Shown here: in pieces, positions 16,779-30,020 of the stretch
Layout: every line of letters begins with the position of its first letter
How positions within the stretch are numbered: position 1 is the stretch's first letter
IMG/VR virus record: IMGVR_UViG_3300023242_000392
Coordinates: 1 to 30,417 of that record
Source: a virus
Reading direction: 5' to 3' (one strand)
Length of the DNA: 30,417 bases
Notes under the pieces: model-generated
The model's input: the letters and a program-made list of their open reading frames with translations, nothing else
Databases searched by the model: none
What the model was told of the DNA's origin: nothing
Program-made: the position numbers and the translations under genes

Positions 16779-16822
16779 TGGTTCAGCTTCCCGCTGTTAA
16801 ACGCGTTAGCATCCCGCCAACG

Positions 16823-22441: not shown

Positions 22442-23746
22442 CTAAAATGGCAGTGCGGTTGATGTCATTGTGCTTCGATCAATAGGCCAGACGCGGTGTA
22501 CCATGTAACCAATTGCGGTCGTAATGTGTTGTGTGTCGTTTTTCTGGTCTTCTTGGAAGGTGCTGCCCTTTTGAAGCTGCACGGTCGCCAAGCCTTTGTT
22601 GCAATACGGCGCCTTAACGGGGTTAACGAAAAGACGCCTTTCGCCCGTCGCGTTGCATATCCTTGCCCGCACCGCGTTTTGTCGATCTTTAATTGCTGGC
22701 GCGGCCCTTGCGACCTTGCGCGAGTAGGTCCAGCCGTTTGTTTTTAGCACGTCCTCTATCTCGGTGTAGTCAGATGCGTGTCCGTGCTTTTCGCCAGCGC
22801 GCCCGGCTGGATCGCCGTAAACATCAACGTGCTTATTCTTGTGGTCCTTGTATCGCTCCACAAATTCCGTAGCGGATTGCCGCGACACCGCGCTGGTCAG
22901 CACGATCTCATCAAGCAGGTAAAGCGCGTCATTGCGCACAACACCGATTGCAGATGATAGCGGCGTGTAGTTCTGATCGTGCATCCATGCTATGCGCTCA
23001 TGCGGTTGGATTGTCTCGCTTGTTTTGTTGCCCTGCCCGTAATCCTCATAAATCCGGCCCGTTGCTGTCTCAAAACTTGCTTCGAACTCTTGCTTGAATT
23101 GCATTGGCGACATTACGCGCCGTGCAGACTCAATCACGTCCTCCGGCAGAATGTCCGACGATTTCCAGTGATACGCCGCCCAGTCTGGATCGCCAGAGTT
23201 TAGGGCATATTGATACATGTCGTAGTAATGATTTAGGCCATCCGGCACGCCAATTAACCAGCACCATGCGCGATAGTCAGGGCGCAAAGGTGACACGGTA
23301 TTCAATGCGGGCAGAATGTTAGACTGCCACGCGCTTTCCTTCACGTCCGCGATTTCATCAATCACGCCGCCCGTCCAAGGTATGCCCTCGATACGCTGCG
23401 GCTTGTCCAGGCCGATCATGTGGATTTCGGACCCGTTGGGCATAAATATCTTTAGATCGCTCTCACTAGGCCGCTTTGTGTGCGCTGCGCTAAACGTCAT
23501 CGCCTTCATGTCGTCCCAGAAGATCTTCTTGACCTGATCGCGCGTAGGGGCTGCACAGAAATACAGCTCGCCCGCGTTCTTCATCGCCTGCTTGGCAACG
23601 TACCGCTTGGCCCGTTCAGTCTTGCCTGATCGTCGCCCAGCAGGCACAACCTTAAACCGCACAACCTCGTCGCGCAGTCTTACTTGCTCGGGAATGTCGA
23701 TCAGATCATACCAGCGTGATGCTTGCCGATCAATTTGCAACGTCAT
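22442..23746 (-). CDS. terL: Terminase large subunit
   Basis: From the ATG at 23746, which overlaps the small subunit stop (ATGA), the protein is 434 residues. The frame is open upstream, but that part repeats the small subunit region and is discarded. The ATPase has AGRRSGKT (Walker A, residues 36-43), VIDE (Walker B, 128-131) and an APTRDQVKKIFWDD segment. The nuclease half has D257 in MHDQNYTP and D312 in VYGDPAGR. The last acidic position, normally in HxxDAxxY, reads HITTAIGY here, with Thr410 in place of Asp. TerL cuts the concatemer and pumps DNA into the prohead through the portal. High confidence on role; the third nuclease ligand needs checking. Confidence 0.93.
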   Translation of the reverse strand: MTLQIDRQASRWYDLIDIPEQVRLRDEVVRFKVVPAGRRSGKTERAKRYVAKQAMKNAGELYFCAAPTRDQVKKIFWDDMKAMTFSAAHTKRPSESDLKIFMPNGSEIHMIGLDKPQRIEGIPWTGGVIDEIADVKESAWQSNILPALNTVSPLRPDYRAWCWLIGVPDGLNHYYDMYQYALNSGDPDWAAYHWKSSDILPEDVIESARRVMSPMQFKQEFEASFETATGRIYEDYGQGNKTSETIQPHERIAWMHDQNYTPLSSAIGVVRNDALYLLDEIVLTSAVSRQSATEFVERYKDHKNKHVDVYGDPAGRAGEKHGHASDYTEIEDVLKTNGWTYSRKVARAAPAIKDRQNAVRARICNATGERRLFVNPVKAPYCNKGLATVQLQKGSTFQEDQKNDTQHITTAIGYMVHRVWPIDRSTMTSTALPF

Positions 23747-24102
23747 CCGTTCAGCTTGTCTGCTAAGTTTGTCAGCGCATCTGATAGCGCGGCGCTTGCG
23801 TCGGCCTCTGGTGCAGGGTTTTCGCTCCACCTTGCCCGCGTTTTTAGCCAAAACATTGCAGCCTTTAGGCAGTCGCTATAAGAAGCCCCCTCCGAAATAG
23901 TTGACCCGTTCGCGGATCGAAAGACAAAAGCGGCAACCTCTGCGTTTCGATCAATGCTGGCCTTGTCCAATTCCTCTCGGTAGAATTTTCGCAAAGTATC
24001 GTCGCTAAGTCCTACGAATGAACCGATATGTTCTTGTGTGATCCCAAAAGACGAAAGCGCAAAAACCTGCGCCCTTGTTTCTTCTGTTGGTTTGTGTGTC
24101 AT
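23743..24102 (-). CDS. terS: Terminase small subunit
   Basis: A 119-residue protein. Residues 1-40 (MTHKPTEETRAQVFALSSFGITQEHIGSFVGLSDDTLRKFYREEL) form a helix-turn-helix of the type seen in small terminase and other DNA-recognition proteins. Residues 48-95 (RNAEVAAFVFRSANGSTISEGASYSDCLKAAMFWLKTRARW) match the central part of alphaproteobacterial small terminases. The gene ends overlapping the large subunit start by four bases. Small terminases bind the packaging site and stimulate the ATPase; the cos/pac site is probably near this gene but is not identified. Confidence 0.75.
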   Translation of the reverse strand: MTHKPTEETRAQVFALSSFGITQEHIGSFVGLSDDTLRKFYREELDKASIDRNAEVAAFVFRSANGSTISEGASYSDCLKAAMFWLKTRARWSENPAPEADASAALSDALTNLADKLNG

Positions 24103-24111
24103 TGATAAACC

Positions 24112-24759
24112 CTAACTATCGGACCAATGTTTATTCTGATATGTGGCCTTTGGCTTTGCACCACCAGATAATTGTTTTTCAAAGAACCCTTTAACGCATT
24201 CCCGCACAACCGAAGAAGATTTCTCCCATCCGTCTTTCATGTTTTCAAAGTGGTGGTGTAAAAAATCAAGGTAAAACTGTGTAATTTCTGCGTCCTCATA
24301 GATTGCAAAGGTTTCGCATGTTCGGTTGGCATTTAGGTTCATGCTTGAAATGATCGTCACTGAGTATTCAGCGTTTTTAATCACAACAAATTTTGCGTGC
24401 ATTTCGCTCGTGCGGATATTTTCCGCCCCGAATAGGTCTTCGATGGCCATTGCATATTTAGATTGTCGGTTGATGTAGCTGTGATCAGTTAGCAATCTGA
24501 TACCTGTTATCAGGTTTGTCTCGCGCATCCACTGGACTTGGTGCGCGTCTTTGATCCCGGCGCTCCATGTAGCAATATATAAATCGGCCGGCCCAGTCTT
24601 TTTCAGGATTGAGTGGATCATGTCGATCAAACTGAATTGGCCCATCGTTAGGCCCATCACATGACACCCTTTAATAAATCCTTCGGTCGCGGCGTCGGCA
24701 CCTTCCTGCTGGAAGCACCCAATTTCGGCTTTTTTGAAACGAAAGTTTGAAACGGTCAT
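24112..24759 (-). CDS. PLD-like nuclease-fold protein with altered HKD motif
   Basis: A 215-residue protein with one phospholipase D-like motif: H121 and K123 in MHAKFVVI, then SSMNLNANRTCE at 138-149, where the usual form is HxK...D followed by GSxNxN...E. The position expected to be Asp (HxKx4D) is Lys128, so the HKD motif is altered. A central strand-helix pattern (PADLYIATWSAGIKDAHQVQWMRE) fits the fold. Single-motif members act as dimers, often as nucleases. It starts by ATGA overlap with a small gene upstream and lies just before the small terminase. It may assist packaging, act on host DNA or be an accessory cargo gene. Confidence 0.75.
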   Translation of the reverse strand: MTVSNFRFKKAEIGCFQQEGADAATEGFIKGCHVMGLTMGQFSLIDMIHSILKKTGPADLYIATWSAGIKDAHQVQWMRETNLITGIRLLTDHSYINRQSKYAMAIEDLFGAENIRTSEMHAKFVVIKNAEYSVTIISSMNLNANRTCETFAIYEDAEITQFYLDFLHHHFENMKDGWEKSSSVVRECVKGFFEKQLSGGAKPKATYQNKHWSDS

Positions 24760-24920
24760 TTTTTTTGGTCCAATTTGGAAAGCAATTCAGTAACGGTTTT
24801 TTCTGTTGCTGCAATTTTAGGCTGTAACATATCCACTATATCAACGGGAAGCCAAGCCGCGACGTATCGCAGGCCAGCCTTTTCCAATGCGCGCCGCTTG
24901 CGGGGGCGGGTTAGGTTCAT
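24756..24920 (-). CDS. 54-residue small protein upstream of PLD-like gene
   Basis: Begins MNLTRPRKRRALEKAGLRYVAAWLP at 24920 and overlaps both neighbours by ATGA, so it is very probably real. The N-terminus is basic. The middle strand RYVAAWLP is followed by two helices (VDIVDMLQPKIAATEKTVTELLSKL), giving a layout like a ribbon-helix-helix or a short antitoxin-like protein. Its tight link to the PLD-like gene could mean a regulator or partner. No family is recognised with confidence. Confidence 0.6.
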   Translation of the reverse strand: MNLTRPRKRRALEKAGLRYVAAWLPVDIVDMLQPKIAATEKTVTELLSKLDQKK

Positions 24921-25129
24921 GCAAACCACTCCACATCACCGCGGCGAATGAAGATCCCCTTAATTGTGTCGCCGTCCATGTCGGACAATTCATAAAGTTC
25001 TGGCTCAATGTCCATAATGTGACGGGCGTGCAAATCCGCTTGCGCGTCACAGTCGCATGATTGGGTGTCGATAACGCGGAAGGTTTTTCCATCAGATGTT
25101 TCGTCGTATGTTCCAAAAGTGTAGGTCAT
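24917..25129 (-). CDS. 70-residue first gene of the packaging operon
   Basis: From the ATG at 25129, which has CAGGAGAGACACA upstream (GGAG, eight bases); the frame extends upstream through the promoter region, which makes longer forms unlikely. The protein MTYTFGTYDETSDGKTFRVIDTQSCD... is acidic, with two cysteines in SCDCD and an ELYELSDMDGDTIKGIFIRRGDVEWF end. It may be a small regulatory or structural protein. It is directly downstream of the operator-promoter block. Unknown family. Confidence 0.6.
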   Translation of the reverse strand: MTYTFGTYDETSDGKTFRVIDTQSCDCDAQADLHARHIMDIEPELYELSDMDGDTIKGIFIRRGDVEWFA

Positions 25130-25172
25130 TGTGTCTCTCCTGCGGGCTGCGACCATCGCCGCCCTTAGAAAT

Positions 25173-25201
25173 ACATTACCGTAACGCGTAACGGCTCGCA
25201 A
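25173..25201 (-). promoter_or_regulatory. Candidate leftward promoter of the late/packaging operon
   Basis: On the minus strand TTGCGA (25201-25196) is followed after 17 bases by TAATGT (25178-25173). The spacer holds the first operator repeat. It is the best-placed promoter for the genes from 25129 leftwards. The -10 match is only moderate, as expected for a regulated promoter. Confidence 0.4.
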
Positions 25202-25222
25202 GGTAAATCGTTACGCGTAACG
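25180..25222. promoter_or_regulatory. Two operator-like repeats (CGTAACG/CGTTACG)
   Basis: CGTTACGCGTAACG at 25209-25222 is a perfect 14-base palindrome. At 25180-25193 CGTAACGCGTAACG repeats the same half twice in direct order. The two sites start 29 bases apart. One lies in the spacer of the candidate promoter and the other just upstream of its -35 box, the usual place for a repressor pair. Confidence 0.6.
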
Positions 25223-25230
25223 TAATTAGT

Positions 25231-25245
25231 TTAACCTTTGTTTAA
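25231..25245. promoter_or_regulatory. CtrA-like box TTAA-N7-TTAA
   Basis: TTAA (25231-25234), seven bases, TTAA (25242-25245): a perfect match to the CtrA consensus known from Caulobacter and relatives, starting with the TTAACC form. A further TTAA is at 25249-25252. It lies about 30 bases upstream of the candidate -35 box of the late operon. The match is direct; binding by host CtrA is inferred. Confidence 0.5.
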
Positions 25246-25268
25246 TCGTTAAGGCATCCCGCCTATAG

Positions 25269-25297
25269 AAAAAGCCCGCCCTGTTTATGGGGCAGGC
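25269..25297 (-). terminator. Intrinsic terminator after the tRNA gene
   Basis: On the minus strand GCCTGCCC and GGGCGGGC form an eight-pair stem (one T-G) with an eight-base loop, followed by TTTTT. It lies 14 bases after the tRNA 3' end and separates the upstream operon from the packaging promoter. Confidence 0.8.
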
Positions 25298-25310
25298 TCT
25301 TGGTCGTGTT

Positions 25311-25394
25311 TGGTAGGAGCGGATGGATTCGAACCAACTCACTTTACGAACTGGTTTACAGCCAGCCGCGCCTCGCCATCTGCGCCGCGCTCCC
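25311..25394 (-). tRNA. tRNA-Tyr (GTA anticodon)
   Basis: An 84-base cloverleaf with encoded CCA. Acceptor GGGAGCG pairs with CGCTCCT (one G-T), followed by discriminator A and CCA. The D stem is GCGC/GCGC with GG in the loop. The anticodon stem GCTGG/CCAGT encloses CTGTAAA, so the anticodon is GTA (Tyr). An 11-base variable region suits a type II tRNA. The T arm GTTGG TTCGAAT CCATC has one T-T mismatch, and position 8 is C instead of T. These oddities suggest a diverged or partly decayed gene, although all arms fold. Confidence 0.8.
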
Positions 25395-25684
25395 ATTATT
25401 TGATCCCGTTAGTATTGCGGGCTGTGTCTCTTTGCATACGCGCCCGCAGACATACTTCATAACGCTTGTGACACTTAGCTTCCCATTACTTACGGGACAA
25501 GTTGAAGCGCGGTTCATGCCTTGGGTTTTAGCGACAGGCAACACTCCGCTTTCGTGCCGCGCCTCATGATGTGTGAAGCTAACCATTCATCGGCGCTTCA
25601 AGGAGTCCAAGCCTCACTTGTATCGCATCACACAACATCAAACGCAATTAGTCACCACAATAAATAGCACGTTTTAGCGGTTAG
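25395..25684. other. 290-bp stretch without a convincing gene
   Basis: Between the tRNA and the next gene (stop at 25685) I see no ribosome binding site with a credible frame and no second tRNA. A 76-codon minus-strand frame (25586-25356) runs into the tRNA and has no upstream site. The stretch may be leader or processing sequence for the tRNA transcript, or a remnant of lost genes. Confidence 0.5.
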
Positions 25685-26197
25685 TCAACCCGCCAAACGA
25701 TCGAGCCCATCGCGCAGGGCTAGAATGCTGTTCGGCATGTGGTCTGTCATTTTGAAACATTCGTCCTGAAGCATTGCTGTGCGAACGCGCCCGATCTTGT
25801 CACGCATTGCGTAATAGCGTTTGTAAACGTCTGGATCACCATCGCCGCTGTCAAACCCGCCCGACGATACTGCCAAGCACGACTTGCTTTCCGCAATACC
25901 GATTTCGCCCTTATAGGCTGCATAAACCTGCGAGAAGTCGCGGGCTGTCTGCTCTTGCTGTGGTGTAATGATGCCTTGAACCATTAAGCGCCCGATCATA
26001 TCGCACGATCTGTCAACGTATGGCCCAACTGTGTCTTTACCTGGTGTCGCCCAATTACCTCGCGCCAGACGCTCGTTTGTTGGCGTTGCGGTATGGTTGT
26101 GACCCAACGATGCGACAACGCCCTGTGACGGCTGCTTTGCGGCCTGTGGCGTTGACTGCGCCCGCTTGTTGCGTAGTTGCTGCGCTTTGGTGGTCAA
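25685..26197 (-). CDS. 170-residue hypothetical regulator-like protein
   Basis: Starts with TTG at 26197, supported by TAAGG seven bases upstream; no ATG fits. The N-terminal 45 residues are basic and low in complexity (MTTKAQQLRNKRAQSTPQAAKQPS...). After that a helical part (RSCDMIGRLMVQGIITPQQEQTARDFSQVYAAYKGEIG) resembles the layout of alphaproteobacterial phage regulatory proteins that start a helix pair with ITPxQxxxxxxFxxxY. I am not sure of the family. It precedes the tRNA on the same strand and may be in the transcript that ends at 25269. Confidence 0.55.
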   Translation of the reverse strand: MTTKAQQLRNKRAQSTPQAAKQPSQGVVASLGHNHTATPTNERLARGNWATPGKDTVGPYVDRSCDMIGRLMVQGIITPQQEQTARDFSQVYAAYKGEIGIAESKSCLAVSSGGFDSGDGDPDVYKRYYAMRDKIGRVRTAMLQDECFKMTDHMPNSILALRDGLDRLAG

Positions 26198-26329: not shown

Positions 26330-26860
26330 TCAAGGCTTATCAATTTTCATCATCTTAACCGAAGCGCAATCAATCACACCGTCAATCGTGTTGTAGGTCA
26401 TCTTGTGTGTGTCTACGTCGTGTGCGATGACACTCCAGAAAAAACCATGCCTGCCAAAGAGTTCATGCGTCACAACAACAGGGTCCGCAGGCTTTACGCG
26501 GTATTTTACGTGTTCAAACCAGCTTAACTTGTGATCCATATCAATCCACGTACCCCTGCTTGCACTAGCCATTTGAATGACTGCCCCATTGTGTTCAGCC
26601 AAAAGCAAAGCCCCCTGCGCCTCTGGTGTCATGTCACCCCAGATCGGGTATTCGTCATCTGCGGTGACTGTTGATCCGGCGCGCGATACCAGTTCCCATG
26701 TTGCGCTACGGCCGTTGTAACCGCCTTTGACCGTTAGCTCCTCGTTAGCGTGTCCAAGCAAATATTTTCCGCCAGTCACATAAAGACTAGAGTCTAGATC
26801 ATCAACACATCGCACCGTGTCGCCCACGTTGTACCCTAGTTCTGCAAATGTCTTATTCAT
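26330..26860 (-). CDS. 176-residue hypothetical protein
   Basis: Starts at 26860 with AAAGGG eight bases upstream; overlaps the preceding gene by eight bases. It begins MNKTFAELGYNVGDTVRCVDD, with a beta-rich part that looks like an SH3-like or barrel domain (VGDTVRCVDDLDSSLYVTGGKYLLGHANEELTVKGGYNGRSATWELVSRAG). The centre has GDMTPEAQGALLLAEHNGAVIQMAS ... WFEHVKYRVKP, a pattern I know from phage proteins of unknown function, and the end is a second beta unit (FFWSVIAHDVDTHKMTYNTIDGV). No enzyme motif is visible. Confidence 0.6.
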   Translation of the reverse strand: MNKTFAELGYNVGDTVRCVDDLDSSLYVTGGKYLLGHANEELTVKGGYNGRSATWELVSRAGSTVTADDEYPIWGDMTPEAQGALLLAEHNGAVIQMASASRGTWIDMDHKLSWFEHVKYRVKPADPVVVTHELFGRHGFFWSVIAHDVDTHKMTYNTIDGVIDCASVKMMKIDKP

Positions 26861-27425
26861 TGTTTTCGCCCTTTGCTTGCTTGCGTGCGTTTTGCTTCAA
26901 CATGGCATATGATCTTGCGCCGAATACGCATGTTGGATTTGCTGCGGACCAGATGGACACCGACGAAGGCGACACCCCGGCTGCGATTGCTGTTTCTTTC
27001 TTCGTCATGCCCTTGGCCGCGCACTCGCGATAAAACACGCCGATGTTTGGATCGATCTGCGGCATTCTTTCGTCCGGCTCAATGCCGAGGGCAATGCAGT
27101 CAGTGCGGATCGTGCTTTTAGATGCGCCAAGAACCTTTACAATTTCTGTTGTTGTCGCACCTGCCGCGACCAGCTTGGCAACGGCGCGGCGGCGTGCTTC
27201 AATTTTCTGCACTACGTCTGCGATTGTGTTGACTTTCTTTTGAGCCTTTGGGCGTTTGCAGGCAATAGGCGCGCTTAGACGCACAACAGGAACCGCTTGC
27301 GACCTAGCGTATGCCTTGCGCGCCTCAAGGCTTGCTACGGTCGCCTCATGGCTTGTGTAATCAATTGGCGGCAGCGTGCTAAATGGGAATATGTTCTGCA
27401 CGGTGCGGGTTAGGAAAGTTTGCAT
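26853..27425 (-). CDS. Regulator with two helix-turn-helix motifs
   Basis: A 190-residue protein with AAGGA about nine bases before the ATG at 27425. Residues 72-113 (IEARRRAVAKLVAAGATTTEIVKVLGASKSTIRTDCIALGI) form a helix-turn-helix, and residues 134-162 (ECAAKGMTKKETAIAAGVSPSSVSIWSAAN) form a second. The region before (residues 40-68) is basic. This is a likely sequence-specific DNA-binding protein, maybe a regulator of the operon or of the late promoter. The first 30 residues contain aromatic and proline residues and no clear fold. Confidence 0.7.
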   Translation of the reverse strand: MQTFLTRTVQNIFPFSTLPPIDYTSHEATVASLEARKAYARSQAVPVVRLSAPIACKRPKAQKKVNTIADVVQKIEARRRAVAKLVAAGATTTEIVKVLGASKSTIRTDCIALGIEPDERMPQIDPNIGVFYRECAAKGMTKKETAIAAGVSPSSVSIWSAANPTCVFGARSYAMLKQNARKQAKGENNE

Positions 27426-28131: not shown

Positions 28132-29673
28132 CTAAATCGTGCGCCAGACAAACACCTTTTCCTTTTTGTACGTCCGCCCAGTCGCCACTTTCTTGACAAC
28201 TCCGCGCGCTTGCAGGTCCAACATCATGGTTTCAATTGTCAGCTTGTCCACCTTTGACCGGCTCGACAAGACGTTTGTTGACGCCCCTGTGTCCGCATCA
28301 ATGTAGCCCATCAGCCGCGCCGCCAATGCCTCTTGCGGCTTGTCTTTTTGGTTGTCGTTCGCAAAGACCAGCGCGACCTTGAAGTCCATTTCGTCCTTCA
28401 CATAGGCCAGCGCCCAGCGCACATGCTCAATCGTCCTGCGCCCGTCTGGAATTGCAAGAATAAAACTGACCTTGGCGATCAACTCGTAACCGCGCCGGAT
28501 CATTGCAACAGACGCTTCGCCCGTTTTCTCGCCCATGTGGTCCGCATAGTCGATCAGCCATTCGTTGATGTTGACCAGCGCAGCGGCTGCATCGTCGTCC
28601 GTCTTGACCAAAAACCGCTTGCCCGCGTGTTCAACGCGTTCGCCCTCGTTACCGTATAGCACGCCCAAACGGCCTGCCATCATCATCGGCATTTCTTTGC
28701 GCTTGAACCCCTTGCGCGCGCGCGGGTTGATGTCGCGCTCGTTTACAATAATTGCACGCCCGACAAAACCTTGGGTGGCGGTTTCGCCGTCCATAATGCC
28801 GTCAAACGTGCTTGGCGTTGTGAACCCGATCAGCGACAAAAACGGACGCTCAAGCCCGCTGTCAATCATGCTTAACATGCGTTCGGCCTCCCTGATCCGA
28901 TCCGTGTCGTCATTGTCCTGCGCCTTGGATAGCTGGCCCACGTATATTTTGCGCAATTCCCGCTTTGTGTCACCGCTTAAAAGAAAGCGACTGTTTGCTT
29001 TTGAATATGCGTTCATAATAATCGCAAACACGCCCTCCAAATAAGACGCCCCCCCGCGCTTTTGTGCGTTGCGAACCTTGCCGAGAAAGATACCGATTTC
29101 GTCAATGTTGTAAAACGCGGCTTGGTGTTCGATCAGATTGCGCGTGATTTCTTGTTCCGACTTGATGCCGCCCTGCAATGCGCCTTGAATGCCAGCCGCG
29201 ATGTGCAGTTCTGTAAAAGCCTGCATAACCGCTTCCTTGCCAGTAGATGATGCCGCGACACAAAAGGCCAGCATATTTGCTGTGACCGCGTTTAATTCAT
29301 CCTCGTGCGACATTCCGCCGATGTTAGCGATTGCGCATAGACCAGACGCAACGGCCAAGCGGCGGCGCGGATAACGGCACTGACTGTCAATCCAATCAAC
29401 CACTTGCCCGACAAAGCCCGGCGGCGTTAGCAGATCCACCGCCGACACGTCCAGCGGCATGTTTAGCCCGTCGTCAACTTCGACGTGTTCGGGCGGGCTG
29501 CGAAATTCATCCTGCACCAGCCCGAAATCCTGATCGGTTTTTAGCGTAATTGCGTCATATTCTGCAATTGCCGCGATCCGCTTTTCTGCGTCGCTGTCGT
29601 ATTTCCTTTCGTCAAACTCTTTTTCACCCGTTGGCGCATAGTCCGCCATGTTCCATATGTTGCTGTCTGTCAT
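28132..29673 (-). CDS. DUF3987-like replication ATPase
   Basis: From the ATG at 29673, which overlaps the preceding stop (ATGA), the protein is 513 residues. The core resembles DUF3987 proteins, a P-loop family common in phages and linked to primase-helicase functions: a Walker A-like AASSTGKE at about 140-147 and a Walker B-like YNIDEIG with D191-E192. Later parts GFTTPSTFDGIMDGETATQGFVGRAIIVNERD, AMIRRGYELIAKVSFILAIPDG and a C-terminal winged-helix-like region are also typical. No primase catalytic domain is seen; it may lie in another gene. It probably acts in DNA replication near the AT-rich repeat. Confidence 0.72.
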   Translation of the reverse strand: MTDSNIWNMADYAPTGEKEFDERKYDSDAEKRIAAIAEYDAITLKTDQDFGLVQDEFRSPPEHVEVDDGLNMPLDVSAVDLLTPPGFVGQVVDWIDSQCRYPRRRLAVASGLCAIANIGGMSHEDELNAVTANMLAFCVAASSTGKEAVMQAFTELHIAAGIQGALQGGIKSEQEITRNLIEHQAAFYNIDEIGIFLGKVRNAQKRGGASYLEGVFAIIMNAYSKANSRFLLSGDTKRELRKIYVGQLSKAQDNDDTDRIREAERMLSMIDSGLERPFLSLIGFTTPSTFDGIMDGETATQGFVGRAIIVNERDINPRARKGFKRKEMPMMMAGRLGVLYGNEGERVEHAGKRFLVKTDDDAAAALVNINEWLIDYADHMGEKTGEASVAMIRRGYELIAKVSFILAIPDGRRTIEHVRWALAYVKDEMDFKVALVFANDNQKDKPQEALAARLMGYIDADTGASTNVLSSRSKVDKLTIETMMLDLQARGVVKKVATGRTYKKEKVFVWRTI

Positions 29674-30020
29674 ACCTGCGCACCTGCCCAATTTATAAAT
29701 GCGGCCTTGTCGTCGTCGCTTAGACGCCGAAAACATTCCGCCATTGTGATTTTTGTTTGCTTTGTTGTCATTTCAGTTTCTTTCAATTTCAGCGCCGACG
29801 CAAGAAAGTATGCGGCCAGTTCGTCCGGGCTTGCAAGATCCGCCCAGAACATTGCGTCGCGCCGGACCTGTTCGGGAAACATAGAAACGTCTGGAAAGCT
29901 GGACCCGTGATGTTGCAACCATTCCGAAACCGTCAGCACGGCTGTTTTTTTGTCAATCGTTGCGCAATCACTTAGGCCAAGCCATAGCAATTCCGCGCGC
30001 CTTTCCTTTGTTATTGTCAT
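29670..30020 (-). CDS. 116-residue hypothetical protein
   Basis: Starts by ATGA overlap with the Cro-like gene and ends by ATGA overlap with the ATPase gene. It is helical and charged: MTITKERRAELLWLGLSDCATIDKK, then EWLQHHGSSFPDVSMFPEQVRRDAMFWADLASPDELAAYFLASAL, and a C-terminal MAECFRRLSDDDKAAFINWAG. An internal ATG near residue 84 with a small helical unit might be a separate start, but no ribosome binding site supports it. It may be a loading or accessory protein for the ATPase; this is a guess from position. Confidence 0.6.
   Translation of the reverse strand: MTITKERRAELLWLGLSDCATIDKKTAVLTVSEWLQHHGSSFPDVSMFPEQVRRDAMFWADLASPDELAAYFLASALKLKETEMTTKQTKITMAECFRRLSDDDKAAFINWAGAQV

Follow-up and report, generated by a model that had tools for sequence, protein, structure and literature searches.

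A widely shared promoter-operator element, probably an exchangeable cassette, precedes packaging genes in phages with unrelated terminases

Do the packaging genes of this phage take their timing from the host cell cycle? The question arises at positions 25,173-25,252 of the window (the whole stretch of viral DNA analysed here, 30,417 nucleotides long), where an original prediction had seen a CtrA-like box and repressor-type operators stacked at the packaging promoter. It proposed that the phage reads the host cell cycle through CtrA and combines this signal with a repressor of its own. We asked which parts of this arrangement recur in related phages, and what might bind there.

The promoter, its operators and the packaging operon

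The promoter, P2 (25173-25201, minus strand), runs leftward, with a -35 box TTGCGA at 25201-25196, a 17-bp spacer and a -10 box TAATGT at 25178-25173. It matches the consensus weakly (7 of 12 bases) and is absent from the promoter listing; what makes it credible is its conservation, not its consensus match. Operator O1 (25209-25222), which adjoins the -35 box upstream, is a heptad pair CGTTACG-CGTAACG and forms the perfect 14-bp palindrome CGTTACGCGTAACG, as had been noted from the sequence. Operator O2 (25180-25193) lies inside the P2 spacer; the CGTAACG-type repeat reported there is present, but as two tandem heptads, CGTAACG-CGTAACG, not one. Near the putative transcript start (about 25166), the leader can fold into a hairpin, GGGC-G-GCGA-UGG-UCGC-A-GCCC (25144-25164, minus strand; z -2.2), and a Shine-Dalgarno sequence, AGGAG, stands at 25137-25141 (minus strand).

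Five genes, all on the minus strand, lie downstream: ORF1 (24917-25129; 70 aa), a variable first gene with no family match; ORF2 (24756-24920; 54 aa), a conserved protein and candidate repressor; a PLD-family endonuclease (phrog_16945; 24112-24759) with relatives in most element-bearing loci; the small terminase subunit TerS (phrog_309; 23743-24102); and the large subunit TerL (22442-23746; start inferred from L003). The name "packaging promoter" is therefore right as to place. Among the loci compared, only L253 holds an ORF1 relative (54%), and ORF1 as a search query gave no match; the PLD protein found no match in plasmids. PLD-family endonucleases lie within the packaging operons of phages with unrelated terminases.

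An intrinsic terminator (25270-25301, minus strand; -20.7 kcal/mol, z -4.7) separates P2 from a tRNA-Tyr gene (gta; 25311-25394, minus strand). Because the upstream tRNA unit ends at this terminator, the packaging operon would depend on P2. Farther upstream, a promoter candidate P1, TTGACTAACCGCTAAAACGTGCTATTTAT (25660-25688, minus strand), reads TTGACTAAC...TATTTAT at 25688-25660 and is common to the close TerL relatives L002-L004, L006 and L007. A variable tRNA region stands behind this conserved candidate (window 25400-25690; L006; L007:457-531), and the tRNA gene before terS varies across the phage group, being Tyr in the window and Met in L007 (L007:457-531).

To follow the promoter region across viral contigs, we used an element model of about 105 bp, a profile built from 15 seeds. 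Besides the window, the element was matched in 28 contigs at 41-97 bits, with the next matches below 15 bits; the 15 seeds match their own profile by construction, and the remaining matches do not. In every aligned element the -35 starts with TTG (TTA in L242) and a 17-bp spacer leads to a -10 of the TA type; the TTG-N20-TA spacing is kept. O2 occupies the same place in the spacer in 22 of 22 aligned elements, in 16 variants (degenerate in L213), and covariation links its symmetric positions, of whose 112 cells 91 are complementary (shuffles 83.7; p about 0.003). O1 is kept in most elements, exactly 29 bp from O2, centre to centre, wherever both are present; several elements have lost it (L239, L241, L245 group), and it is absent where other DNA has taken the place of the sequence upstream of the -35. 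The leader hairpin has the same fold in nearly all elements and is absent in L205. In L212 and L232 its stem is altered on both sides in a compensatory manner (GGGAA-UGG-UUCC, with a UGG loop). The element thereby has what marks a phage repressor-operator promoter: a symmetric operator that overlaps the -35/-10 region, at a conserved, fixed position. Judged from sequence, the promoter and its operators are genuine and widely shared, and some site-specific repressor very probably acts at the heptads.

Heptad pairs occur essentially once per record. Most of the 20 records have no near-perfect pair outside the locus, and only 3 of the 20 hold one extra match with 2 mismatches; this frequency is more in keeping with a regulator of one operon than with a global repressor. 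Our literature search found no paper on a CGTWACG heptad-pair operator. In a blind scan, most matches to CGTTACGCGTAACG lay in other phages and in unrelated contexts, and many of these phages were Pseudomonas-type by sequence, so the 14-mer alone is not diagnostic. In L082-L201 it is found next to terminators as well as within reading frames (GCG TTA CGC GTA ACG), which hints at a function at the DNA level unconnected with the window. One viral contig carries an iteron-like array of seven copies, six spaced 52 bp (L104:8378-8756).

The TTAA-N7-TTAA box and the recombination junction

The TTAA-N7-TTAA box TTAACCTTTGTTTAA (25231-25245) is perfect, as originally described, and it adjoins P2. Because P2 runs leftward with its -35 at 25201-25196, the distance from box to -35 is 29 bp. 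This is the only perfect box in the 30,417 bases, where 0.45 are expected and at least one appears in 35 of 100 shuffles. At local AT content, the expectation in the 66-181 bp round the promoter is 0.003-0.004, so the box would be striking had it been predicted beforehand; as the lone perfect box of a 30-kb scan for many motifs it is unremarkable.

The original prediction had also named what would speak against it, namely related phages that keep the promoter without the box, and this is what we found. The box stands beside none of the 28 other copies of the element, only beside that of the window, and nowhere in the loci of the 14 nearest TerL relatives. Among 20 records scanned whole, one other contains a TTAA-N7-TTAA anywhere. 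Of the 80 viral loci found to encode TerL relatives, three have a box (L035, L067, L077); these are distant relatives, and the box lies elsewhere in the locus. Thus, of the proposed stack, the repressor-type operators stand, recurring with the promoter, but the CtrA box is not conserved.

The DNA around the box shows how it may have formed. The nearest TerL relatives (95% identity) differ in TerS and carry no part of the cassette, and in L006 and L007 the leader AGGCGGGACGCCTTAACGATCAACGAAAGGCGGGACGCCT directly precedes terS. A remnant of this leader persists in the window at 25235-25267 (minus strand; 28 of 33 bases as in L006) and holds one box half. The cassette begins at 25235, where the remnant ends. 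The box straddles this junction: one TTAA lies in the leader remnant, reading TCAA in L006 and L007, and the other lies across the junction on the side of the incoming cassette. Short hairpins of the form NNN-GGGAN-N'N'N' (GGC-GGGAA-GCC, AGC-GGGAA-GCT, GAC-GGGAA-GTC) occur just before start codons in L003-L014, and in the window at 16785-16795 and 25250-25263 (minus strand). In the TerL relatives, 15 are on the coding strand and 0 on the other, with about 3 expected in shuffles; they are possibly a translational control element.

Could host CtrA nevertheless bind 25231-25245 and, with a phage repressor, couple the packaging promoter to the cell cycle? The perfect box at 29 bp from the -35 speaks for it, as does the reach of the element family. 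One member, L256, proved identical to a prophage carried by plasmid pRA01 in Roseicitreum antarcticum, an Antarctic marine bacterium of the Rhodobacterales (Alphaproteobacteria) whose relatives use CtrA; this prophage encodes an integrase, its operon genes follow the same order, and it keeps the promoter and operators. Host CtrA is established as controlling some alphaproteobacterial phages, in which its sites are concentrated and intergenic (PMC9437464). Against this stand the missing boxes in other elements and nearest TerL relatives, as well as the TCAA in the L006 and L007 leaders. The single site in 30.4 kb, with neither clustering nor intergenic enrichment, also differs from the dense clusters of published CtrA phages (PMC9437464). 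The box falls short of the TTAA-N7-TTAAC consensus, whose fifth base is missing, and the Rhodobacter-type KTAAC-N6-KTAAC (TTAAC-N6-GTAAC) has no occurrence in the window. Its centre falls near -72 of the putative start, whereas in most CtrA-activated promoters the site lies at -35 (PMC11264516). The 35 kb read of the pRA01 prophage contains no TTAA-N7-TTAA. As to the window's own host, for which the tRNA-Tyr gave no assignment, the relatives point two ways: TerL relatives in cultured genomes are gamma- and betaproteobacterial, whereas the element family reaches the Rhodobacterales. We rejected the CtrA reading as the likely function on conservation, chance expectation, extended consensus and junction analysis; from sequence, the box is probably adventitious and CtrA control of P2 highly unlikely. 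A lone perfect TTAA-N7-TTAA near a phage promoter does not warrant a CtrA reading without conservation.

ORF2 and the candidate binders of the heptads

ORF2 follows the element in every element-bearing contig. A search with ORF2 recovered 34 loci, 27 of which have the element; of the other seven, three do not extend far enough upstream, and L244, L257, L258 and L261 have ORF2 but no element. Two DNA-pattern scans blind to ORF2 matched 11 contigs, and ORF2 was present in 11 of 11. The downstream terminases differ between element-bearing contigs. L228 and L229 resemble the window in promoter (about 91%) and ORF2 (about 80%), with unrelated TerS and TerL. By contrast, L212 and L213 resemble it in PLD endonuclease (about 80%) and TerS (70-79%), with a diverged promoter (53-56%) and ORF2 (37-52%). 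Distances between elements rise with those between ORF2 proteins (rho 0.52, Mantel p 0.004). Simple co-inheritance may account for both this parallel divergence and the linkage.

The ORF2 protein carries a near-invariant basic stretch, TRPRKxRxLEKAGLRYVAxWLP. Its match to the Pfam MazE-like antitoxin family (PF11455; E 0.0016, 18.8 bits) lies below the curated cut-off of 22, and 6 of 19 ORF2 members match this family at E 0.1. An AF2 monomer model (pLDDT 76) predicts helices at 7-14 and 26-53 with no strand, and no clear ribbon-helix-helix or helix-turn-helix. None of the known DNA-binding folds matched ORF2 significantly, and fold and PDB sequence searches gave no usable match. A profile search of 398 genomes of the phylum found no match, a result that carries no weight either way. 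ORF2 is our best, though tentative, candidate for the protein that binds the heptads, in our judgement at slightly less than even odds.

Other binders can be weighed on the same evidence. A host regulator might bind the heptads in place of ORF2, which would let the phage take its timing from the host; in favour, the operator hardly varies among contigs with otherwise different genes, and the fold of ORF2 is only predicted. However, every contig in which the element was seen also bears ORF2, and the operator diverges together with ORF2 (L213, L205), which makes a host protein unlikely. Another phage protein, such as ORF1 or an early repressor encoded elsewhere, seems to us quite improbable. A distant repressor gene could escape notice because most records are fragments, but ORF1 is variable, and the sites lie at a single promoter, unlike those of CI/Cro-type regulators, which have several operators. 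The helix-turn-helix protein at 26853-27425, which the original prediction had put forward as a possible operator-binding repressor, is not kept in phages that keep the operators. It gave one weak 32% match in 19 records, many of them fragments, and we rejected it; the second such candidate (29670-30020) has no phrog or Pfam match.

Alternatively, the small terminase might recognise the palindromes as a packaging (pac/cos) site. Inverted repeats in the neighbourhood of terS commonly serve as packaging sites, and these lie about 1.1 kb upstream of terS. Yet the element is almost unchanged in L228 and L229, beside a TerS and TerL unrelated to those of the window, which led us to reject a site read by TerS. 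It also recurs in L256 beside a third terminase type, and O2 is fixed relative to the -35 and -10; a packaging site is accordingly very doubtful.

The explanation that we favour, with some reserve, is that this DNA forms a promoter-operator cassette, conserved and exchangeable, which drives ORF1, ORF2, the PLD nuclease, terS and terL. A dimeric DNA-binding protein would fill O2, between the -35 and -10, and O1, just upstream, and would block RNA polymerase until late infection or prophage induction. The likeliest repressor would be ORF2, a small basic protein of the same operon that may act as an autorepressor in the manner of antitoxins or omega/Arc-type repressors. The box, probably no CtrA site, would be an accidental product of the fusion between the cassette and an older terS leader. 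Overall, the cassette of the packaging operon is probably exchangeable and autoregulated. A bolder reading, which we would sooner doubt than assert, is that ORF2 is the first member of a family of tiny phage repressors, so far undescribed, whose target is the CGTWACG heptad pair. They would control a mobile promoter-hairpin-ORF2 cassette that moves between phages with unrelated terminases and places packaging and the PLD nuclease under one switch. If the favoured explanation is true, the element is where packaging genes are controlled in phages and prophages that reach the Rhodobacterales, by way of a defined operator and, as candidate repressor, a protein of 54 residues.

Comparison with known regulatory systems

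Like the CtrA-controlled alphaproteobacterial phages described for lytic deferment (PMC9437464), the window has a perfect TTAA-N7-TTAA near a promoter; unlike theirs, its site is single, unclustered and not conserved, and its relatives have no box. The gene transfer agent of Rhodobacter capsulatus, under CtrA/GafA control, belongs to the same host order as one member of the element family (PMC6363796). There, CtrA acts on gafA via TTAAC-N6-GTAAC and the GTA promoter itself is not bound (PMC6363796); the window differs in having no such site. With lambda-type cI/cro operators the element shares paired operators that overlap a promoter, whereas it has a single promoter, no adjoining divergent repressor gene, and 14-bp heptad pairs set 29 bp apart. 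Autoregulated type II antitoxin operons (MazE and relatives) differ in that the operon of the window has no toxin gene and encodes packaging genes. The omega repressor is a ribbon-helix-helix protein that recognises heptad repeats, and the fold of ORF2 is here predicted only; the omega heptad is WATCACW, against CGTWACG in the window. The arrangement resembles MazE-type antitoxin and omega repressor operons in having a small basic protein encoded within the operon and palindromic or heptad operators that overlap the operon's own promoter.
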